From an uncultured Schumannella sp. (GTDB lineage Bacteria; Actinomycetota; Actinomycetes; Actinomycetales; Microbacteriaceae): a stretch of DNA of 64,000 nt. The stretch lies in assembly GCF_905479755.1 (NCBI RefSeq), contig NZ_CAJQNT010000027.1:1-64000 (forward strand), given 5' to 3'. Shown here in pieces: positions 1 through 34,418 of this stretch. A program made the position numbers and the translations under genes. The notes beneath the pieces were generated by a model that did no database searches, had not been told where the DNA came from, and worked only from the letters and a program-made list of their open reading frames with translations. Within the stretch, counting starts at the first letter, position 1, and every line of letters starts with the position of its first letter.

Positions 1-117
1 GCGCGCCCTGCGCGTCCTGCGCGCCCCGCGCGCACCCTGCGCGCCCCTGCGCGCCCCGCGCGTACCCCCGCACCCTGCGCGCCCCGCGCACCCCGCGCGT
101 ACCCCCGCCCCCCTCCC
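1..117. repeat. GC-only low-complexity tract
   Basis: Simple-sequence DNA made almost only of G and C, built from imperfect units such as CCTGCGCGCCCCGCGCG and CGCGTACCCCCGC that recur several times. No start codon with a ribosome binding site and no recognisable protein is seen. It leads straight into the palindromic repeat cluster that follows. The left edge is cut by the window, so the tract may be longer. Confidence 0.6.
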
Positions 118-180
118 CGCGAGCGGTGCCAAAAGTGCAATCCCGGCGCCCTACATCGCACGTTTCGCACCGCTCACGGG
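118..180. repeat. Palindromic repeat family A, copy 1
   Basis: Imperfect inverted repeat of about 63 bp. The left arm begins CGCGAGCGGTGCCAAAAGTG; the right arm reads GCACGTTTCGCACCGCTC. Arms of about 20 nt enclose a 19-nt loop. The same design recurs eight more times in the window. Both strands could fold into a long stem-loop. Confidence 0.85.
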
Positions 181-270
181 GTTCGGGGTGACGAGCACTG
201 CGCACGACTGCGCGACACCGCGCGACCCGCGCATCCCCGTGATCCCGCGCCCACGTCGCCCACACACCCA

Positions 271-334
271 CGCGAGCGGTGCCAAAAGTGCGATCCCGCA
301 GCCGCGCACCCCACGTTTTGCACCGCTCGCGGGG
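271..334. repeat. Palindromic repeat family A, copy 2
   Basis: Second copy: left arm CGCGAGCGGTGCCAAAAGTG, right arm CACGTTTTGCACCGCTCGCG. The loop differs from copy 1, which argues for conservation of the arms rather than of the whole unit. Confidence 0.85.
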
Positions 335-365
335 CACGAGGGAACGCACCCCGCGCACCCCGCGC

Positions 366-429
366 CGCGAGCGGTGCCAAAAGTGCAATCCCGGCGCCCT
401 ACATCGCACGTTTCGCACCGCTCGCGGGG
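366..429. repeat. Palindromic repeat family A, copy 3
   Basis: Third copy, nearly identical to copy 1 including its loop. It lies 248 bp downstream of copy 1 as part of a larger local duplication (118-334 against 366-580). Confidence 0.85.
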
Positions 430-518
430 TTCGAAGTGACGAGCACTGCGCACGGCTGCGCGACACCGCGCGACCCGCGCATCCCCGTGATCTCGCACCC
501 ACGTCGCCCGCACACCCA

Positions 519-580
519 CGCGAGCGGTGCGAAAAGTGCGATCCCGCAGCCGCGCACCATACGTTTCGCACCGCTCGCGG
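519..580. repeat. Palindromic repeat family A, copy 4
   Basis: Fourth copy: left arm CGCGAGCGGTGCGAAAAGTG, right arm ACGTTTCGCACCGCTCGCGG. It corresponds to copy 2 in the 248-bp duplication. Confidence 0.85.
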
Positions 581-643
581 AGATGTGGGGGCGGAAGCGG
601 GCGCGGGTGTGCGCGCAGCTCGCGGGCCGGTGCGGGGGTGCAA

Positions 644-707
644 CGCGAGCGGTGCCAAAAGCACGATCCACACGCCCCACACCCCACGTTTCGCACCGCT
701 CGCGGGG
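644..707. repeat. Palindromic repeat family A, copy 5
   Basis: Fifth copy: CGCGAGCGGTGCCAAAAGCA on the left, ACGTTTCGCACCGCTCGCGG on the right. It is the copy closest to the 3' end of the leftward acetyltransferase gene, where a long stem-loop could stop or stabilise the transcript. The remaining 58 bases to position 765 hold nothing I recognise. Confidence 0.85.
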
Positions 708-6144: not shown

Positions 6145-7047
6145 TCAGCGCGACGCAAGGATGCGCCGCACACGCGCAACGAAGAGCTCCGGGTGCGCGT
6201 ACACATCCGCCGCCGTCACGCGAATCACCCGCCACCCGGCGGCTTCCATTCGTTCGCGGCGGGAGATGTCGCGCATCCACGTCGCTCGATCGATGCGATG
6301 GACATCGCCCTCGTATTCGAAGGCGACTCGCGCATCCGGATAGGCGAGGTCAGGATGCATGACTCCCTCGGCATCCACGATCTCGACACCGAGGGATGGT
6401 TCCGGCAGTCGCGCGGCGACCAGGAGCAGCCGCATGTGCGTTTCGGGGCGCGAGTCGACACCTTCGCGCACGCGCGGGAGCGCCCACTGCACGGTCTGCG
6501 CGCCGCGCTTGCCGGCGTGACGGGCCGCGGCCGCAGCGAGCTCGTCGAGGGTGCACGCGGGAGGGATGCGCGGGGTGCTCCGCCGACGCGAAACGAGGGA
6601 GTCCCCGACCGCGACGGCGTCCCGCCGACCCAGGGTCGCAGCCGCGTGGCACCACGCATCCGCCGGATCGAGCACCGGGAGACCGTGCACGAAACCGACG
6701 CCGACCTGCGAAACCCGGTGCCCGTGCACCCCGCGAGCGCGCGGCGGCGTGCGCGGGTCGAGGACCGCGAGGTGCAGCGGCTCGTCGGCGCTCTCGCCCG
6801 GCAGCGACGCCCCGATGAGCCTCAACGCGGTGCGATGTGCGAAGAATTGGCCCGGCGCGAGCCGCGTCGCATAGGCACGACACCGCTCGAGAAGGTCGCT
6901 CGGCGCGGCGCCGAAGATCACCACGCCATGGAAGGGATGCGCGACATCCGCACACCGGAGCCGTCCGGCCGTGACGCCGGCGGCGAGCGCCTCTCCCGTC
7001 GTGGCGGGGCCGAGCCTCAGTTCAGTGGGGATCGCAGCGCGGCGCAT
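6145..7047 (-). CDS. DUF559 domain protein with AbiEi-like N-terminus
   Basis: 300-residue protein. The C-terminal third matches the DUF559 style (MHPDLAYPDARVAFEYEGDVHR, then WMRDISRRERMEAAGWRVIRVTA), a fold related to Vsr and restriction-type endonucleases; the Asp/Glu pattern of EYEGD is the putative metal site. The N-terminal part (TTGEALAAGVTAGRLRCADVAHPFHGV) recalls the winged-helix region of AbiEi antitoxins, but no AbiEii toxin gene is adjacent. The ATG at 7047 directly follows GGAGGA, an unusually short spacing, so the start is uncertain. An open frame continues upstream to 7437, but it runs through repeat DNA and is not believed. Function unknown. Palindromic repeats flank it on both sides. 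Confidence 0.75.
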   Translation of the reverse strand: MRRAAIPTELRLGPATTGEALAAGVTAGRLRCADVAHPFHGVVIFGAAPSDLLERCRAYATRLAPGQFFAHRTALRLIGASLPGESADEPLHLAVLDPRTPPRARGVHGHRVSQVGVGFVHGLPVLDPADAWCHAAATLGRRDAVAVGDSLVSRRRSTPRIPPACTLDELAAAAARHAGKRGAQTVQWALPRVREGVDSRPETHMRLLLVAARLPEPSLGVEIVDAEGVMHPDLAYPDARVAFEYEGDVHRIDRATWMRDISRRERMEAAGWRVIRVTAADVYAHPELFVARVRRILASR

Positions 7048-7222: not shown

Positions 7223-7285
7223 CGCGAGCGGTGCGAAACGTGCGATTGCAGGCTCTCACACCCCACGTTTGGCACCGCTCGGCGG
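7223..7285. repeat. Palindromic repeat family A, copy 8
   Basis: CGCGAGCGGTGCGAAACGTG on the left, CACGTTTGGCACCGCTCGGC on the right. Repeated almost identically 162 bp further on. Between copies 8 and 9 lies GGGAGCGGGC-type simple sequence. Confidence 0.85.
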
Positions 7286-7384: not shown

Positions 7385-7448
7385 CGCGAGCGGTGCGAAA
7401 CGTGCGATTGCAGGCTCTCACACCCCACGTTTGGCACCGCTCGGCGGG
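7385..7448. repeat. Palindromic repeat family A, copy 9
   Basis: Same arms and loop as copy 8. It lies 82 bp beyond the 3' end of the leftward proS gene and could act as its transcript end. The whole stretch 7048-7529 holds copies 7-9 and GC-rich simple sequence (GGCGGGAGCG, GCAGCGTGCG units) and no gene I can support. Confidence 0.85.
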
Positions 7449-9437: not shown

Positions 9438-10589
9438 TTAGACCGTGACGACCTCGGGCGTGCCGCTCTCACCCGGCGGCATCTCGGCCGCGATGCGGTT
9501 GGCCTCTTCGATGAGCGTGGCGACAATCTCGGACTCGGGCACGGTCTTGATGACCTCGCCCTTGACGAAGATCTGGCCTTTGCCGTTGCCGGAGGCGACG
9601 CCGAGGTCGGCCTCACGCGCCTCGCCGGGCCCGTTGACGACACATCCCATGACGGCCACGCGCAGTGGCACGCTCATGCCTTCGAGGCCCGCGGTGACGT
9701 CGTCGGCGAGCGTGTAGACGTCGACCTGGGCGCGGCCGCAGGAGGGGCACGACACGATTTCGAGCTTGCGTTCGCGCAGGTTGAGCGACTGCAGGATCTG
9801 CAGGCCCACCTTGACTTCCTGGGCGGGCGGCGCGGACAGCGAGACGCGGATGGTGTCGCCGATTCCTTCGGAGAGCAGGATGCCGAAGGCGGTCGCGCTC
9901 TTGATGGTGCCCTGGAACTCGGGGCCCGCCTCGGTCACACCGAGGTGCAGGGGCCAGTCACCGCGTTCGGCGAGCTGACGGTAGGCCTTGACCATCACGA
10001 TCGGGTCGTTGTGCTTGACCGAGATCTTGAAGTCGTGGAAGTCGTGCTCTTCGAAGAGCGACGCTTCCCACACGGCGCTTTCGACGAGCGCCTCCGGGGT
10101 GGCCTTGCCGTACTTTTCAAGCAATCGCGGGTCGAGGCTGCCGGCGTTGACGCCGATGCGCAGGCTGACGCCCGCATCCTTGGCGGCTTTGGCGATGGCG
10201 CCGACCTGGTCGTCGAATTTGCGGATGTTGCCGGGGTTGACGCGCACGGCCGCGCAGCCGGCGTCGATCGCCTGGAACACGTACTTCGGCTGGAAGTGGA
10301 TGTCGGCGATGACCGGGATCTGGCTCTTCTTGGCGATGATGTGCAGCACATCCGCGTCGTCCTGGCTCGGCACGGCGACGCGCACGATGTCGCAGCCGGA
10401 GGCGGTGAGTTCGGCGATCTGCTGCAGGGTGGCGTTGATGTTCGTCGTCGGCGTGGTCGTCATCGACTGCACGCTGACGGGTGCGTCACCGCCGACGAGC
10501 ACCTTGCCGACCTTGATCTGACGCGATTTGCGTCGCGGAGCAAGGGTCTCAGGGGCGGATTTCGGCATCCCAATGTTCAGTGCAGGCAC
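9438..10589 (-). CDS. ispG: 4-hydroxy-3-methylbut-2-enyl diphosphate synthase (GcpE)
   Basis: Penultimate step of the MEP isoprenoid pathway, converting MEcPP to HMBPP with a [4Fe-4S] cluster. 383 residues. The N-terminal TIM barrel begins [20 protein letters not shown] and QSMTTTPT; the C-terminal cluster domain has [12 protein letters not shown] and [12 protein letters not shown], carrying the three cluster cysteines. I chose GTG at 10589 ([10 protein letters not shown]), since a TAGGCT box ends 7 nt upstream and the family usually begins with this sequence; an ATG at 10568 is the alternative. With dxr it marks two MEP-pathway genes in the window. Confidence 0.95.
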
Positions 10590-30468: not shown

Positions 30469-31815
30469 ATGAGCGACACGCTGACCTCCCCCACGCTAGC
30501 CCCGGTCCCGACGATGCGTCGCGTCGTCACGGCCATCCCCGGGCCGAAGTCGGCGCAGCTGGAGGAGCGCCGACGCGCGGTCGTTTCGACGGGGGTCTCC
30601 TCCGCGCTCCCCGTCTACATCGCGCGCGCCCACGGCGCGATCCTCGTCGACGTTGACGACAATGCTCTGCTCGACCTGGGCGGCGGCATCGGCGTCACCA
30701 CGATCGGTCACACCGACGACGCCGTCGTCGCTGCGGCGCGCGAACAGCTCGGCGATGTGACCCACACACTCTTCACGATCACGCCGTACGAGGAGTACAT
30801 CCGCGTCGCAGAGCTGCTTGCCGAGCACACCCCGGGCGACTTCGCCAAGAAGACCGTGCTCGTCAACTCGGGCGCCGAAGCCGTCGAGAACGGCGTCAAG
30901 ATCGCCCGCAAGTACACCGGGCGCTCCGGCGTCGCGGTGCTGGAACACGCCTATCACGGGCGCACCAACCTGACCATGGCGATGAACTTCAAGGCCATGC
31001 CCTACTCGCTCGGTTTCGGTCCCTTCGCCGGCGACGTCTACCGCGCCCCGAACTCCTACCCGCTGCACGACGGACTCACCGGCGAGCAGGCGGCGGCGCG
31101 CACGATCGCCTACCTGGAGAAGACCGTCGGCGCGGCCGATCTCGCCTGCCTCGTCGTGGAGCCGATCCAGGGCGAAGGCGGCTTCATCGTGCCCGCCGCG
31201 GGCTATCTGCCGGCGCTGCAGGAGTGGTGCACCGCCCACGGGATCGTGTTCATCGCCGACGAGATCCAGTCCGGCATGGCGCGCACCGGCCGCTACTTCG
31301 CGAGCGAACACTTCGGGTTGGTGCCCGACCTCGTGCTCTCGGCCAAGGGCATCGCGGGCGGCCTGCCGCTCGCGGGCGTCACCGGCCGGGCCGAGATCAT
31401 GGATGCCGCCCAGCCCGGCGGCCTTGGCGGCACCTTCGGCGGCAACCCGGTCGCCTGCGCCGCCGCGATCGCCGTCTTCGAGCGCATCGAGAGCGACGAC
31501 CTGCTCGCCGAGGCGACCCGTATCGAGGGTGTGCTCGTGCCCGCGCTCCGCGAGCTGCAGGCGCGCTTCCCCGTCATCCGCGAGGTGCGCGGCATCGGCG
31601 CGATGATCGCGATCGAGCTCGCCGACCCCGAGACCGGCGCGCCGAACGCGGCCGCCGTCGGCTCGCTCGTCGCGTACGCCGCGCAGCAGGGTGTGCTGCT
31701 GCTTTCGGCCGGCACGTACGGCAACGTGCTGCGCATGCTGCCCTCGCTCGCGATCACCGACGAGCAGCTGCACGACGCGCTCGGCGTGCTCGAGTCGGGC
31801 CTCGCCGCGCTCTAA
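30469..31815 (+). CDS. gabT: 4-aminobutyrate aminotransferase, copy 2
   Basis: 448-residue paralogue of the aminotransferase at 27284, strongly similar along its whole length. It has VNSGAEAVENGVKIARKYTG, YHGRTNLTMAMNFKAMP, EPIQGEGGFIVPA, the PLP aspartate in IADEIQSGMARTG and the lysine in SAKGIAGGLP. Differences cluster in the N-terminal 25 residues and in the C-terminal domain, so the two may differ in amine choice (GABA, 5-aminovalerate, beta-alanine). It is followed by a convergent gap with two large palindromes. Confidence 0.92.
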   Translation: MSDTLTSPTLAPVPTMRRVVTAIPGPKSAQLEERRRAVVSTGVSSALPVYIARAHGAILVDVDDNALLDLGGGIGVTTIGHTDDAVVAAAREQLGDVTHTLFTITPYEEYIRVAELLAEHTPGDFAKKTVLVNSGAEAVENGVKIARKYTGRSGVAVLEHAYHGRTNLTMAMNFKAMPYSLGFGPFAGDVYRAPNSYPLHDGLTGEQAAARTIAYLEKTVGAADLACLVVEPIQGEGGFIVPAAGYLPALQEWCTAHGIVFIADEIQSGMARTGRYFASEHFGLVPDLVLSAKGIAGGLPLAGVTGRAEIMDAAQPGGLGGTFGGNPVACAAAIAVFERIESDDLLAEATRIEGVLVPALRELQARFPVIREVRGIGAMIAIELADPETGAPNAAAVGSLVAYAAQQGVLLLSAGTYGNVLRMLPSLAITDEQLHDALGVLESGLAAL

Positions 31816-31867
31816 CCCCCACACCGACACCCCCGCGCCGACACCCTCGCGCCGAAACCCTCGCGCG

Positions 31868-31932
31868 CAAACTCGGAGATTCGGCACGCTCGTCCACGAG
31901 TCGTGGACGAAACGCCGGATTCTCCGACTTTG
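31868..31932. repeat. Palindromic repeat family B, copy 1
   Basis: 65-bp near-perfect inverted repeat: arms of 32 nt start CAAACTCGGAGATTCGGC and end GCCGGATTCTCCGACTTTG, meeting in the core GTCCACGAGTCGTGGAC, which is palindromic around one base. Immediately after it the right arm is repeated once more (CGCCGCATTCTCCGAGCTTG, about 31942-31961). It lies downstream of gabT and downstream of the convergent aminotransferase gene, so it could end transcription from both sides. Confidence 0.85.
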
Positions 31933-32051
31933 CGGAGGGAGCGCCGCATTCTCCGAGCTTGCGGAGGAAGCGCCGCAGGCATCCGACTCCAACCGACACC
32001 ACTCAACCCCCCAAACAGGCCCGGCTCCCTCAGGCGCATCTCACCCGCGCG

Positions 32052-32116
32052 CAAACTCGGAGATTCGGCACGCTCGTCCACGAGTCGTGGACGAGACGCC
32101 GGATTCTCCGACTTTG
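32052..32116. repeat. Palindromic repeat family B, copy 2
   Basis: Second 65-bp copy, 184 bp after the first, identical in the core GTCCACGAGTCGTGGAC and with very few differences elsewhere. The remaining DNA of the gap 31816-32197 contains CACCGACACC-type tandem bits (31816-31860) and GGGCGCGGGGC simple sequence (32120-32190) and no gene. Confidence 0.85.
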
Positions 32117-32197
32117 CGGAGGAGGCGCGGGGTGGGCGCGGGGCGGGCGCGGGGCGCGGGACGGCGGCGCGGGGCGCCCCCGCGCGGCAACCGGCGC

Positions 32198-33565
32198 TCA
32201 GCCGAACAGCGAGGCGACCGCGTCGCGGAACGCGACCGTGTGACGCGCCACATCCTCGCTCGTGGTGGCCGGACACATGAGCGCCATGTTGTGAAACGGC
32301 GTGATCAGAATGCCGCGGTTCAGCGCGTGCAGGTGCAGGTACTGTTGCAGCTCGAAATCGTCGGCCTCGGCCGCCTCGCGACCGTCGCGCGGCGGCGTCG
32401 CGCGGAAGCTGTACTCGGCGCGGCACCCGAGCTGGGTGACCTGCCACGGCGCGTCGAACTCGTCGATGGAGGCCTGAACGCCCTCGGTCCACTCGCGGGC
32501 GCGCTCGATCATGCCCGGATACGCCTCGGCGGTGAGCACCTCGCCGAGCGTTGCTCGCACTCCCGCCATCGACAGGGCGTTTCCGGCGAGCGTGCCGCCG
32601 ACTCCCCCGACGTCGAGATCCTCGCGCCCCTCCCCGCGCCAGTGCAGGCTCTCGGCCACCCGTTCGGCGAGAGCGTCGGTCATTCCCCACGCCGCCGCCG
32701 GGATGCCGCCCCCGATCGTCTTGCCGACCACCACGACATCGGGTCGAAGCCCGTCGCGCGCGGTCATTCCGCCAGGGCCCGCGCACAGGGTGTGCGTCTC
32801 GTCGATCACGAGGAGCGTGCCGCTCGCATCGCACGCGGCGCGAACCGCCTCGTGCCAGCCCGGCTCCGGCAGCACGATCCCGATGTTGGTGAGTGCCGGT
32901 TCGATGAGCACCGCGGCGACCTCGTGCGAGGCGAGCGCCGCCTCCATTGCCGGGATGTCGTTGAACGGCACCACAACCGTCGTCTCCGCCGGGTCCACGG
33001 GCGGGCCGATGTTGCCGCGCCGCGACACGACACGACCTTCCTCGTCGAGCGTGGCGTACGCCTCGTCGACGGTGCCGTGGTAGCAGTAGTCGATCACGAG
33101 CACCTTGGCGCGCCCGGTCGCCTGCCGCGCGTAGCGCAGCACATGGCGGTTGGCGTCGGTGGCGCTCAGCGTGAACTGCCAGCGCGGCAGCCCGAAGCGC
33201 TCGGCCAGCAGACCGGCGGCGGACGCCGCATCCGCGGTCGGAAGCATGAAAGTGGATCCGCGACGCAACTGCGCGGTGATCGCGGCCACCGACTTCTCGG
33301 GAGCGTGCCCGACCATCGCGCCGGTGTCACCGAGGCACAGGTCGACGTGGTCGATCCCGTCAGCGCACTCGAAGTGCGCCCCCGCCGCGGCCACCACATA
33401 GGGAGGCCACGGGCCCGGCCACTTCGCCATCCAGAGCATCGGCACCCCGTCGGGCAGGTGTTCGCGCCCCGCCTCGAACAGCCGCCGGGATTCGGGGCGC
33501 GCCGCGGCGTAGCGCGCCAGTTCGTCCTCGAACAGTCGCGCGAGCCGCTGCCGGTCGGCGTACAT
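32198..33565 (-). CDS. Class III aminotransferase, encoded with a Pot-type importer
   Basis: 455-residue PLP aminotransferase related to glutamate-1-semialdehyde aminomutase and similar transaminases. It has LSATDANRHVLRYARQATGR in the phosphate-binding place, YHGTVDEAYATL, the PLP aspartate in LLVIDETHTLCAGPGG, and the lysine in VVVGKTIGGGIPAAAWG. The usual SGAEA phosphate motif is replaced by SATDA. The ATG at 33565 lies 4 nt after the potC stop, so it is the fifth gene of the importer operon and probably handles the imported amine. It is clearly more distant from the two GabT copies than they are from each other. The substrate is unknown; an amine or amino acid derived from polyamines is likely. 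Confidence 0.85.
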   Translation of the reverse strand: MYADRQRLARLFEDELARYAAARPESRRLFEAGREHLPDGVPMLWMAKWPGPWPPYVVAAAGAHFECADGIDHVDLCLGDTGAMVGHAPEKSVAAITAQLRRGSTFMLPTADAASAAGLLAERFGLPRWQFTLSATDANRHVLRYARQATGRAKVLVIDYCYHGTVDEAYATLDEEGRVVSRRGNIGPPVDPAETTVVVPFNDIPAMEAALASHEVAAVLIEPALTNIGIVLPEPGWHEAVRAACDASGTLLVIDETHTLCAGPGGMTARDGLRPDVVVVGKTIGGGIPAAAWGMTDALAERVAESLHWRGEGREDLDVGGVGGTLAGNALSMAGVRATLGEVLTAEAYPGMIERAREWTEGVQASIDEFDAPWQVTQLGCRAEYSFRATPPRDGREAAEADDFELQQYLHLHALNRGILITPFHNMALMCPATTSEDVARHTVAFRDAVASLFG

Positions 33566-33569
33566 TCTT

Positions 33570-34418
33570 CTAGCCGGACTTCGCGAGTTTCTTGCGCCGC
33601 GCCGCCGCCGAGAGCTGCGAGACCACGACAAGAACGATGGCCGCGAAGAACACCGCCGAGGCGATCACGTTCGCCTGCGCGGGGATGCCGCGGGCGGCCG
33701 CTGTGTAGACGTACTTCGGGAAGGTCACCGCCGCCCCCGAGTTGAAGTTCGTGATGATGAAGTCATCGAAGCTGAGCGCGAAGGAGAGCAGCGCCGCGGC
33801 GATGATGCCGGGAAGCAGCAGCGGGAAGGTGATCCGCCAGAACACCTGCCCGGGGCTCGCATACAGGTCGCGCCCCGCCTCTTCGAGCGCCGGATCAAGG
33901 CTCGCCACCCGGGCGCGCACCGTCACCACGACGAAGCTGATGCAGAACATCGTGTGGGCGATGATGATCGTCAGCAGGCCCTTCGGGATGCCCGCCGAGA
34001 GGAACTGAGCGGCAAGCCCGGCGCCGAGCACGACCTCGGGCGTCGCCATCGGCAGGAAAAGCAAGAGCGTGGTCGCGGCCCGGAACTTGAAGCGGTAGCG
34101 CACGAGCGCGATCGCCATCGCCGTGCCGAGCGTTGTCGCGGCGATCGTCGCGGCGCCCCCAACGAGGATGCTGTTGCCGAAGGCGACGCAGACCTCCGGC
34201 TGGTCGCAGATGTTCAGCCAGTTGTCGAACGTGAAGCCGCGCCAGACGATATTGGTGCGCCGCACGTCGTTGAACGAGAACACGATCGTGTAGGCGATCG
34301 GGATCAGCAAGAACACGAGCGCGAGGATCGAGTAGGCGCCGAGGCCCCACTTGCCCACGCCGAGACGGAACGGGGCACGCTTGGGCGCCGGACGCGTCGC
34401 CGTGACGGAATTGCTCAC
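33570..34418 (-). CDS. potC: Polyamine-type ABC permease, PotC
   Basis: Inner-membrane permease, 282 residues with six membrane segments. The coupling EAA loop reads LDPALEEAGRDLYASPGQVFWRITFPLLLPGI in pattern, as in PotC/YdcV. ATG at 34418 overlaps the potB stop. The N-terminal 17 residues are basic and precede the first helix. Confidence 0.92.
   Translation of the reverse strand: MSNSVTATRPAPKRAPFRLGVGKWGLGAYSILALVFLLIPIAYTIVFSFNDVRRTNIVWRGFTFDNWLNICDQPEVCVAFGNSILVGGAATIAATTLGTAMAIALVRYRFKFRAATTLLLFLPMATPEVVLGAGLAAQFLSAGIPKGLLTIIIAHTMFCISFVVVTVRARVASLDPALEEAGRDLYASPGQVFWRITFPLLLPGIIAAALLSFALSFDDFIITNFNSGAAVTFPKYVYTAAARGIPAQANVIASAVFFAAIVLVVVSQLSAAARRKKLAKSG

Follow-up and report, generated by a model that had tools for sequence, protein, structure and literature searches.

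Palindromic repeat families bracketing their own AbiEi-like/EDxHD nuclease genes in a Microbacteriaceae genome: candidate sites of a REPIN-like system

RAYTs are tyrosine transposases of the Y1/HUH type, MITEs combine inverted repeats with solo copies in the genome, and homing enzymes are as a rule carried by introns, inteins or phage genomes and target a single allelic site. Among these systems, the palindromic element described here works most like REPIN/RAYT. According to PMC3116915 and PMC3733652, REPINs are likewise extragenic palindromic repeats with two conserved arms and a variable centre, whose families adjoin their own single-copy nuclease genes, with several lineage-specific families per genome. 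Yet the element stands outside the REPIN/RAYT family because its enzyme class differs: an AbiEi-like module is combined with a Vsr/EDxHD nuclease instead of a Y1/HUH transposase. Moreover, its copies are few (8-24 per family, with exact-pattern counts for families A, C and D), long and almost fixed in length, and its centres are unpaired outside the core of family B. As for the GTAG or CGTC tag at one end of REPIN/RAYT repeats, inspection by eye revealed no GTAG at the consensus arm ends, and CGTC occurs internally, within the core of family B, rather than at an end. TIRtrons and TIRYTs, as described in PMC3733652, also flank a single gene with inverted repeats and have solo repeats elsewhere, but in contrast to these and to the similarly comparable MITEs, the genes bracketed here match no Pfam transposase and each end is a whole palindrome.

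Two further systems resemble the enzyme itself. The homing endonuclease I-Bth0305I dimerises on a target of nearly 60 bp, as stated in PMC3943268, which is close to the 57-89 bp sites found here. AbiEi, the antitoxin of the AbiE type IV toxin-antitoxin system, binds paired 23-bp inverted repeats in the promoter of its own system, as reported in PMC7319586. No report linking DUF559/AbiEi-nuclease genes to palindromes was found in the open-licence PMC literature, which does not prove that there is none; PMC12907096 deals with a DUF559 Vsr-like protein of Caulobacter, and its text contains no word beginning with 'palindrom'.

The window, i.e. the whole stretch of 64,000 nucleotides analysed, belongs to a Microbacteriaceae genome of 2.53 Mb in 54 contigs (G000). 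Here, a 382-bp gap (31816-32197) flanked by convergent class-III aminotransferase genes holds two copies of palindrome family B (Table 1), whose 83-nt repeated units are 96% identical. The earlier note, made from the sequence of the window alone, had reported both as 65-bp palindromes with 32-nt arms and a perfectly symmetrical core. The copies are real and beyond chance, since the 69-mers fold very stably (z about -8 relative to shuffled sequences). The size was slightly underestimated (69 nt with 34-nt arms), and perfect symmetry is limited to the centre GTCCACGA-G-TCGTGGAC, the arms being 76% and 79% complementary. Likewise, the huge hairpin envisaged at the end of either transcript survives as a strong predicted hairpin of the two window copies, not as the essence of the family. 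An assignment to an Rfam RNA family was dropped as no covariance model matched (0 matches in the window at the gathering score and 0 at E<=1 in 31500-32500).

Table 1. Positions of palindromes and associated genes in the window, and of family E copies in other loci.
Feature	Position	Strand	Remark
Five clustered family A palindromes	115..704		115-181, 268-334, 365-427, 505-593, 644-704
Family A palindrome, one side of P0002	6034..6094		
AbiEi-like/Vsr-EDxHD nuclease gene P0002, family A partner	6145..7047	-	between nusA and proS
Family A palindrome, other side of P0002	7225..7281		
Family A palindrome, second near-identical copy	7387..7443		
Class-III aminotransferase, left convergent neighbour	30469..31815	+	
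Family B copy 1, 69-bp fixed-spacing palindrome	31866..31934		83-nt repeated unit 31862-31944
Central core GTCCACGAGTCGTGGAC of family B copy 1	31892..31908		
Lone half-arm, related to right arm of family B	31942..31973	+	
Family B copy 2, 69-bp palindrome	32050..32118		83-nt repeated unit 32046-32128
Central core of family B copy 2	32076..32092		
Class-III aminotransferase, right convergent neighbour	32198..33631	-	alternative start 33565
Family E copies	L200 2010-2091; L202 3136-3230; L214 7831-7936		

In the genome, 15 sites of family B were retrieved, both by BLAST and with a sequence-only model (R1). This bears out the view that the genome carries a second genuine palindrome family, unrelated in sequence to family A, although the organisation of both is alike. 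Of 148 relatives, searched with model R1 and filters that lose some weak matches, three gave weak hits, each at one or two positions and at best with E 6e-6, and the single genome listed as the same genus gave no match. Given these counts against 15 own sites, the idea that family B is common to relatives was rejected.

The 14 distinct copies align in register and without gaps. Their outer arms (CGCAAAsTCGGAGA) and core (GTCCACGAnTCGTGGAC) are conserved, and the linkers vary in sequence while keeping a constant length. When only the arms were searched with the spacing left free between 30 and 60 nt, 11 sites were recovered, every one of them at 45 nt and with the core, and a control pattern yielded 0 matches in the same search. 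Across the dyad, 329 of 476 cells are Watson-Crick pairs, compared with a mean of 331 when the arms are permuted among copies; the linkers alone contribute 51 pairs versus 54 expected, and in many copies they are unpaired. With pairing at the permuted level and a fixed spacing, selection on family B thus acts on sequence and geometry, which suggests that its sites are double-stranded DNA to which a protein binds.

A plausible candidate for such a protein is encoded next to the palindromes. On contig C11, three of the 15 family B sites surround a gene at 9438-10322, between rimM and trmD; its product P0001 matches the Pfam families AbiEi_4 and DUF559 above and MTES_1575 below the cut-off. Family B is thus paired with a nuclease gene, and a further complete pair of this kind is present in the window itself, namely family A with P0002 (Pfam: MTES_1575, below cut-off). 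Two more nuclease genes lie on C3 and C14, with families C and D around them, and all four own nuclease genes are flanked on both sides by their own palindrome family. A profile built from the four proteins finds just these in the genome at E<=1e-8; an MTES_1575 match on C30, a 1325-aa open reading frame that by eye encodes a helicase-type protein, was placed outside the group. The families comprise 24 (A), 15 (B), 8 (C) and 13 (D) copies, counting exact patterns only for A, C and D; four of the five palindromes clustered at the start of the window fit the exact family A pattern. In Pfam, the bracketed genes match DUF559, MTES_1575, AbiEi_4 and AbiEi_3_N, but neither Y1_Tnp nor any other transposase family.

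The structure of the nuclease was approached via an AlphaFold2 model of the homologue from Pseudolysinimonas kribbensis (pLDDT 95). Its N-terminal two-thirds resemble the AbiEi fold, and the AbiEi antitoxin (6y8q) was the sole Foldseek hit with E<=0.001 (2e-5), followed by the catalytic domain of I-Bth0305I (E 0.012, probability 1.00). Using VIA-align, residues 186-280 matched I-Bth0305I with Z 11.0 and Vsr with Z 9.6, and the AbiEi match reached a Z of only 6.7, a level that the tool calls common. The protein hence combines an AbiEi-like winged-helix module at its N-terminus with a Vsr/EDxHD endonuclease domain at its C-terminus. In P0005 numbering, Glu190, Asp217 and Glu226 are present without exception in 83 of 83 sequences, and Asp228, His233 and Asp242 are kept in 98-99% of them; judging from the fold, these residues form a putative active site. 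The Vsr-like catalytic fold with conserved acidic residues is shared with EDxHD/Vsr-like homing endonucleases, from which the system differs in that the gene is chromosomal and the presumed sites are multi-copy and bracket the gene. Compared with AbiE, the nuclease domain is fused on, and none of the eight proteins adjoining the four genes is an AbiEii nucleotidyltransferase toxin.

Taking pairing and fold together, the best explanation, with a probability of about 60%, is that a dimeric AbiEi-EDxHD nuclease has the palindromes as its dedicated sites and that these disperse in a REPIN-like manner. Most likely, two protomers would bind the outer arms through their AbiEi-like modules and span the spacer of fixed length along the same side of the helix, so that the nuclease domains could meet at the centre. 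A cut or nick at the palindrome centre might then be followed by copying during repair, which would carry whole palindromes to other sites, near and far and mostly intergenic, as has been proposed for REPINs and RAYTs. Copies that land in convergent gaps may incidentally aid the ending of transcription. Such a dimer, its AbiEi-like parts at the arms and its nuclease parts close to the dyad, would fit the data, and the nuclease link accounts for both families, A and B.

The geometry of the other families can be read in the same light. Arm-to-arm lengths are 57 nt in 24 of 24 family A copies and 83-84 nt in the eight own copies of family C. Family D, for which 65-95 nt were allowed in four genomes, falls into groups of 75-78 nt (27 copies) and 87-89 nt (44 copies); the modes at 77 and 88 lie about one helical turn apart. 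The copies share descent and their lengths are hence not independent, but most central positions of family D are little conserved. The halves of family A differ in a systematic way and pair less well than permuted halves (321 vs 342, with one of 2000 permutations lower), including position 18 from the dyad with two of 16 pairs versus seven expected. A deficit is also seen for family D, although the six positions outside its arms form slightly more pairs than after permutation, a level reached in 115 of 2000 permutations. Sites of families A and D are hence not symmetric in their centre and may have an orientation. Selection on RNA structure was rejected as an explanation, because dyad pairing is no better than that of permuted arms in B, A or D.

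The fusion of a nuclease to an antitoxin-type module, together with matches of PADLOC AbiEi models to three of the four own proteins, could alternatively be taken to indicate defence or addiction, in which the chromosomal palindromes hold or tame a nuclease that attacks palindrome-free or foreign DNA. This is highly improbable, since the eight neighbouring proteins scanned all match housekeeping families, with 0 AbiEii toxins, DNA methylases or defence genes among them, and no confirmed relative was found among viral contigs. For the latter reason, a phage-borne element was also rejected; the query P0005 had matches in one of 50,697 phage and five of 72,556 plasmid records. Nucleases of this kind are now annotated as orphan AbiEi antitoxins or DUF559 proteins. 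Homologues in NZ_LR134468.1 and NZ_LR134454.1, for instance, are listed as type IV toxin-antitoxin AbiEi antitoxins, a name that may be misleading; the match also spans the nuclease part.

The pairing of palindrome and gene was also seen beyond the own genome. Including the latter, 44 of 59 genomes carry 1-11 such AbiEi_4 + DUF559/MTES_1575 proteins. From other genomes, 80 named loci were collected, mostly of Microbacteriaceae and some of Gordonia, Mycolicibacterium and others, of which 78 were scored, leaving out L130 (wrongly framed) and L101 (a run of N). Palindromes with shared arms flank the nuclease gene on both sides in 44 of these at a threshold of >=14 and in 51 at >=12, compared with none of 130 other genes in the same loci; the remaining 27 lack shared bracketing palindromes even at threshold 12. 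When flank similarity was tested separately, 46 of 80 loci were positive, one of them (L101) as an N-run artefact, versus three of 230 controls.

The position of the palindromes in the 44 loci bears on the possibility that they are operators, with the protein acting as a transcription regulator with many targets and a nuclease domain of minor relevance. The upstream palindrome, which ends a median of 110 nt before the start codon, would suit this reading, as would the above-mentioned binding of AbiEi to repeats in its promoter. However, the second palindrome begins just past the stop codon (median 8 nt), family B prefers convergent gaps, away from the promoters of its neighbours, copies of families C and D lie within coding sequence, and the putative nuclease residues are invariant in all 83 sequences. 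A role as operators is hence unlikely.

Related genomes offer several cases for comparing palindromes and enzymes. D-type palindromes (AAATGCAGGA...TCCTGCATTT) occur in four of 59 genomes, namely the own genome (13), P. kribbensis (G010, identified by coordinates; 7), G023 (17) and G030 (34). Among the loci compared, which represent part of all hits, the proteins closest to the D protein stem from the same genomes (G010 57.5%, G030 52.5%, G023 55% over an 83-aa contig-end fragment), the next showing 40% identity. In G030, a nuclease gene lies between two D palindromes, both bracketing palindromes of the G010 locus (L086) have D-like arms, and G023 has two gene fragments at contig ends with one D palindrome alongside each. 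The exact family A pattern was found in the own genome alone among those searched, and the family C pattern in the own genome and once, at another length, in G027.

Of 30 trmD loci, a nuclease gene adjoins trmD in three (G000, G001 and G010), rimM lies close to trmD without an intervening gene of this kind in 23, and four were unreadable. The palindromes on both sides of the G001 homologue at this position (46% identical) have other arms, AAsTCGGTACC; none of the 58 remaining genomes searched contains this pattern. The G010 homologue is associated with a different, shorter inverted repeat. Contrary to expectation, G001 has only the two bracketing copies and none dispersed; spread is therefore not universal. 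Over all pairs of 48 gene-arm sets, arm similarity correlates weakly with protein identity (rho 0.14, a value that none of 2000 permutations reached); the relation is clear only at identities beyond about 65% and weak below.

The earlier note had proposed to test whether copies favour convergent gaps. They do so in family B, with 11 sites in nine convergent and four sites in three divergent gaps, and none in tandem gaps or genes except for an overlap with the last 14 nt of P0001. These counts treat P0001 as a gene, which the automatic caller missed, so that it labelled the C11 sites tandem. Convergent gaps thus make up nine of 12 occupied gaps (11 of 15 sites), compared with about 9% of available positions as measured in a 460-kb sample (P about 7e-8 for the gaps). 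A general preference was rejected for families C and D on account of their tandem-gap copies, with two convergent, one divergent, four tandem and one in-gene copy for C (8 copies) and one convergent, one divergent, nine tandem, one in-gene and one at a sequence end for D (13). The 23 family A sites read comprise five convergent, one divergent, five tandem and 12 at sequence ends. The convergent preference is hence a trait of family B and not of the palindrome type. Copies inside genes, which the earlier note regarded as incompatible with its reading, exist for the repeat type, not for family B: among 59 copies examined for context, two lie inside a predicted gene, i.e. a family D copy in frame within smc (L290 2858-2934) and a family C copy in frame within an ABC-F gene (L214 10035-10117), both gene identities being supported by PDB alignments. 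A family E copy lies inside a gene that by eye is dnaX, and the segments that in-gene palindromes of families C, D and E encode look disordered.

These placements are also relevant to a possible function as bidirectional transcription terminators, according to which the likeness among copies would be incidental or result from duplication. The convergent share of occupied family B gaps and the stable folds of the two window copies speak for such a function, and a hairpin scan of the nine convergent gaps detected no further hairpin with a score over 11 in eight of them. Nevertheless, it is quite improbable as the basis of the repeats. In a test for intrinsic terminators, pairing equals (B) or falls below (A, D) that of permuted arms, compensatory changes are absent, and the linkers are unpaired in many copies. 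Furthermore, four family B copies occupy divergent gaps, family D resides mostly in tandem gaps, and the bracketing of nuclease genes is left unexplained. In the phoU-gpm gap of the own genome, the family B element adjoins a terminator-like hairpin that is already present; 27 further genomes, all with both genes read, show no such element there. The terminator reading is therefore secondary to that as nuclease sites.

Signs of dispersal come from neighbouring copies. Pairs of adjacent copies from one family were examined in 19 cases (16 in the own genome, three in G030), and 16 of these pairs are at least 91% identical and 146-272 bp apart. Five of the 16 (family B in the window, family A at 7225/7387, twice on C16 and once on C47) stop matching no more than 10 nt from either palindrome edge; in the other 11, the match continues for a further 18-171 nt on one side or both, as plain segment duplication would give. 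Gene conversion could also give rise to near-identical neighbours. The edge-ending pairs, the phoU-gpm copy and the in-gene copies point to copying as a unit, without amounting to proof; an empty site with target duplication was not found.

Whether these nucleases and palindromes represent an undescribed dispersing element of Actinobacteria is evenly balanced in our estimate: chromosomal AbiEi-EDxHD nucleases, each with its own fixed-length palindrome that brackets the gene and spreads, would form a convergent counterpart of REPIN/RAYT built on a homing-endonuclease fold. The proposal provides a testable role for a large group of uncharacterised proteins (AbiEi_4 + DUF559/MTES_1575) and accounts for a class of bacterial palindromes. 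If true, palindromic repeats tied to a chromosomal nuclease arose more than once, with unrelated enzymes, and genes labelled as type IV antitoxins can in fact encode nucleases that have DNA sites of their own. As each genome has its own site-enzyme pairs, their specificity could be read directly from sequence.

Many palindromes are located at contig ends (C24:343, C27:273-646, C28:10, C35:58824-59205, C39:40179 and C47:168-558), so the draft assembly probably under-counts them. A partner nuclease gene was not found for a fifth palindrome family, E (TTTCTCCGGAG...CTCCGGAGAAA; Table 1). Finally, a possible sixth repeat with common GGGATGCATCCC and CAACCGAGTG is present at L200 12040-12103 and L210 16427-16540.
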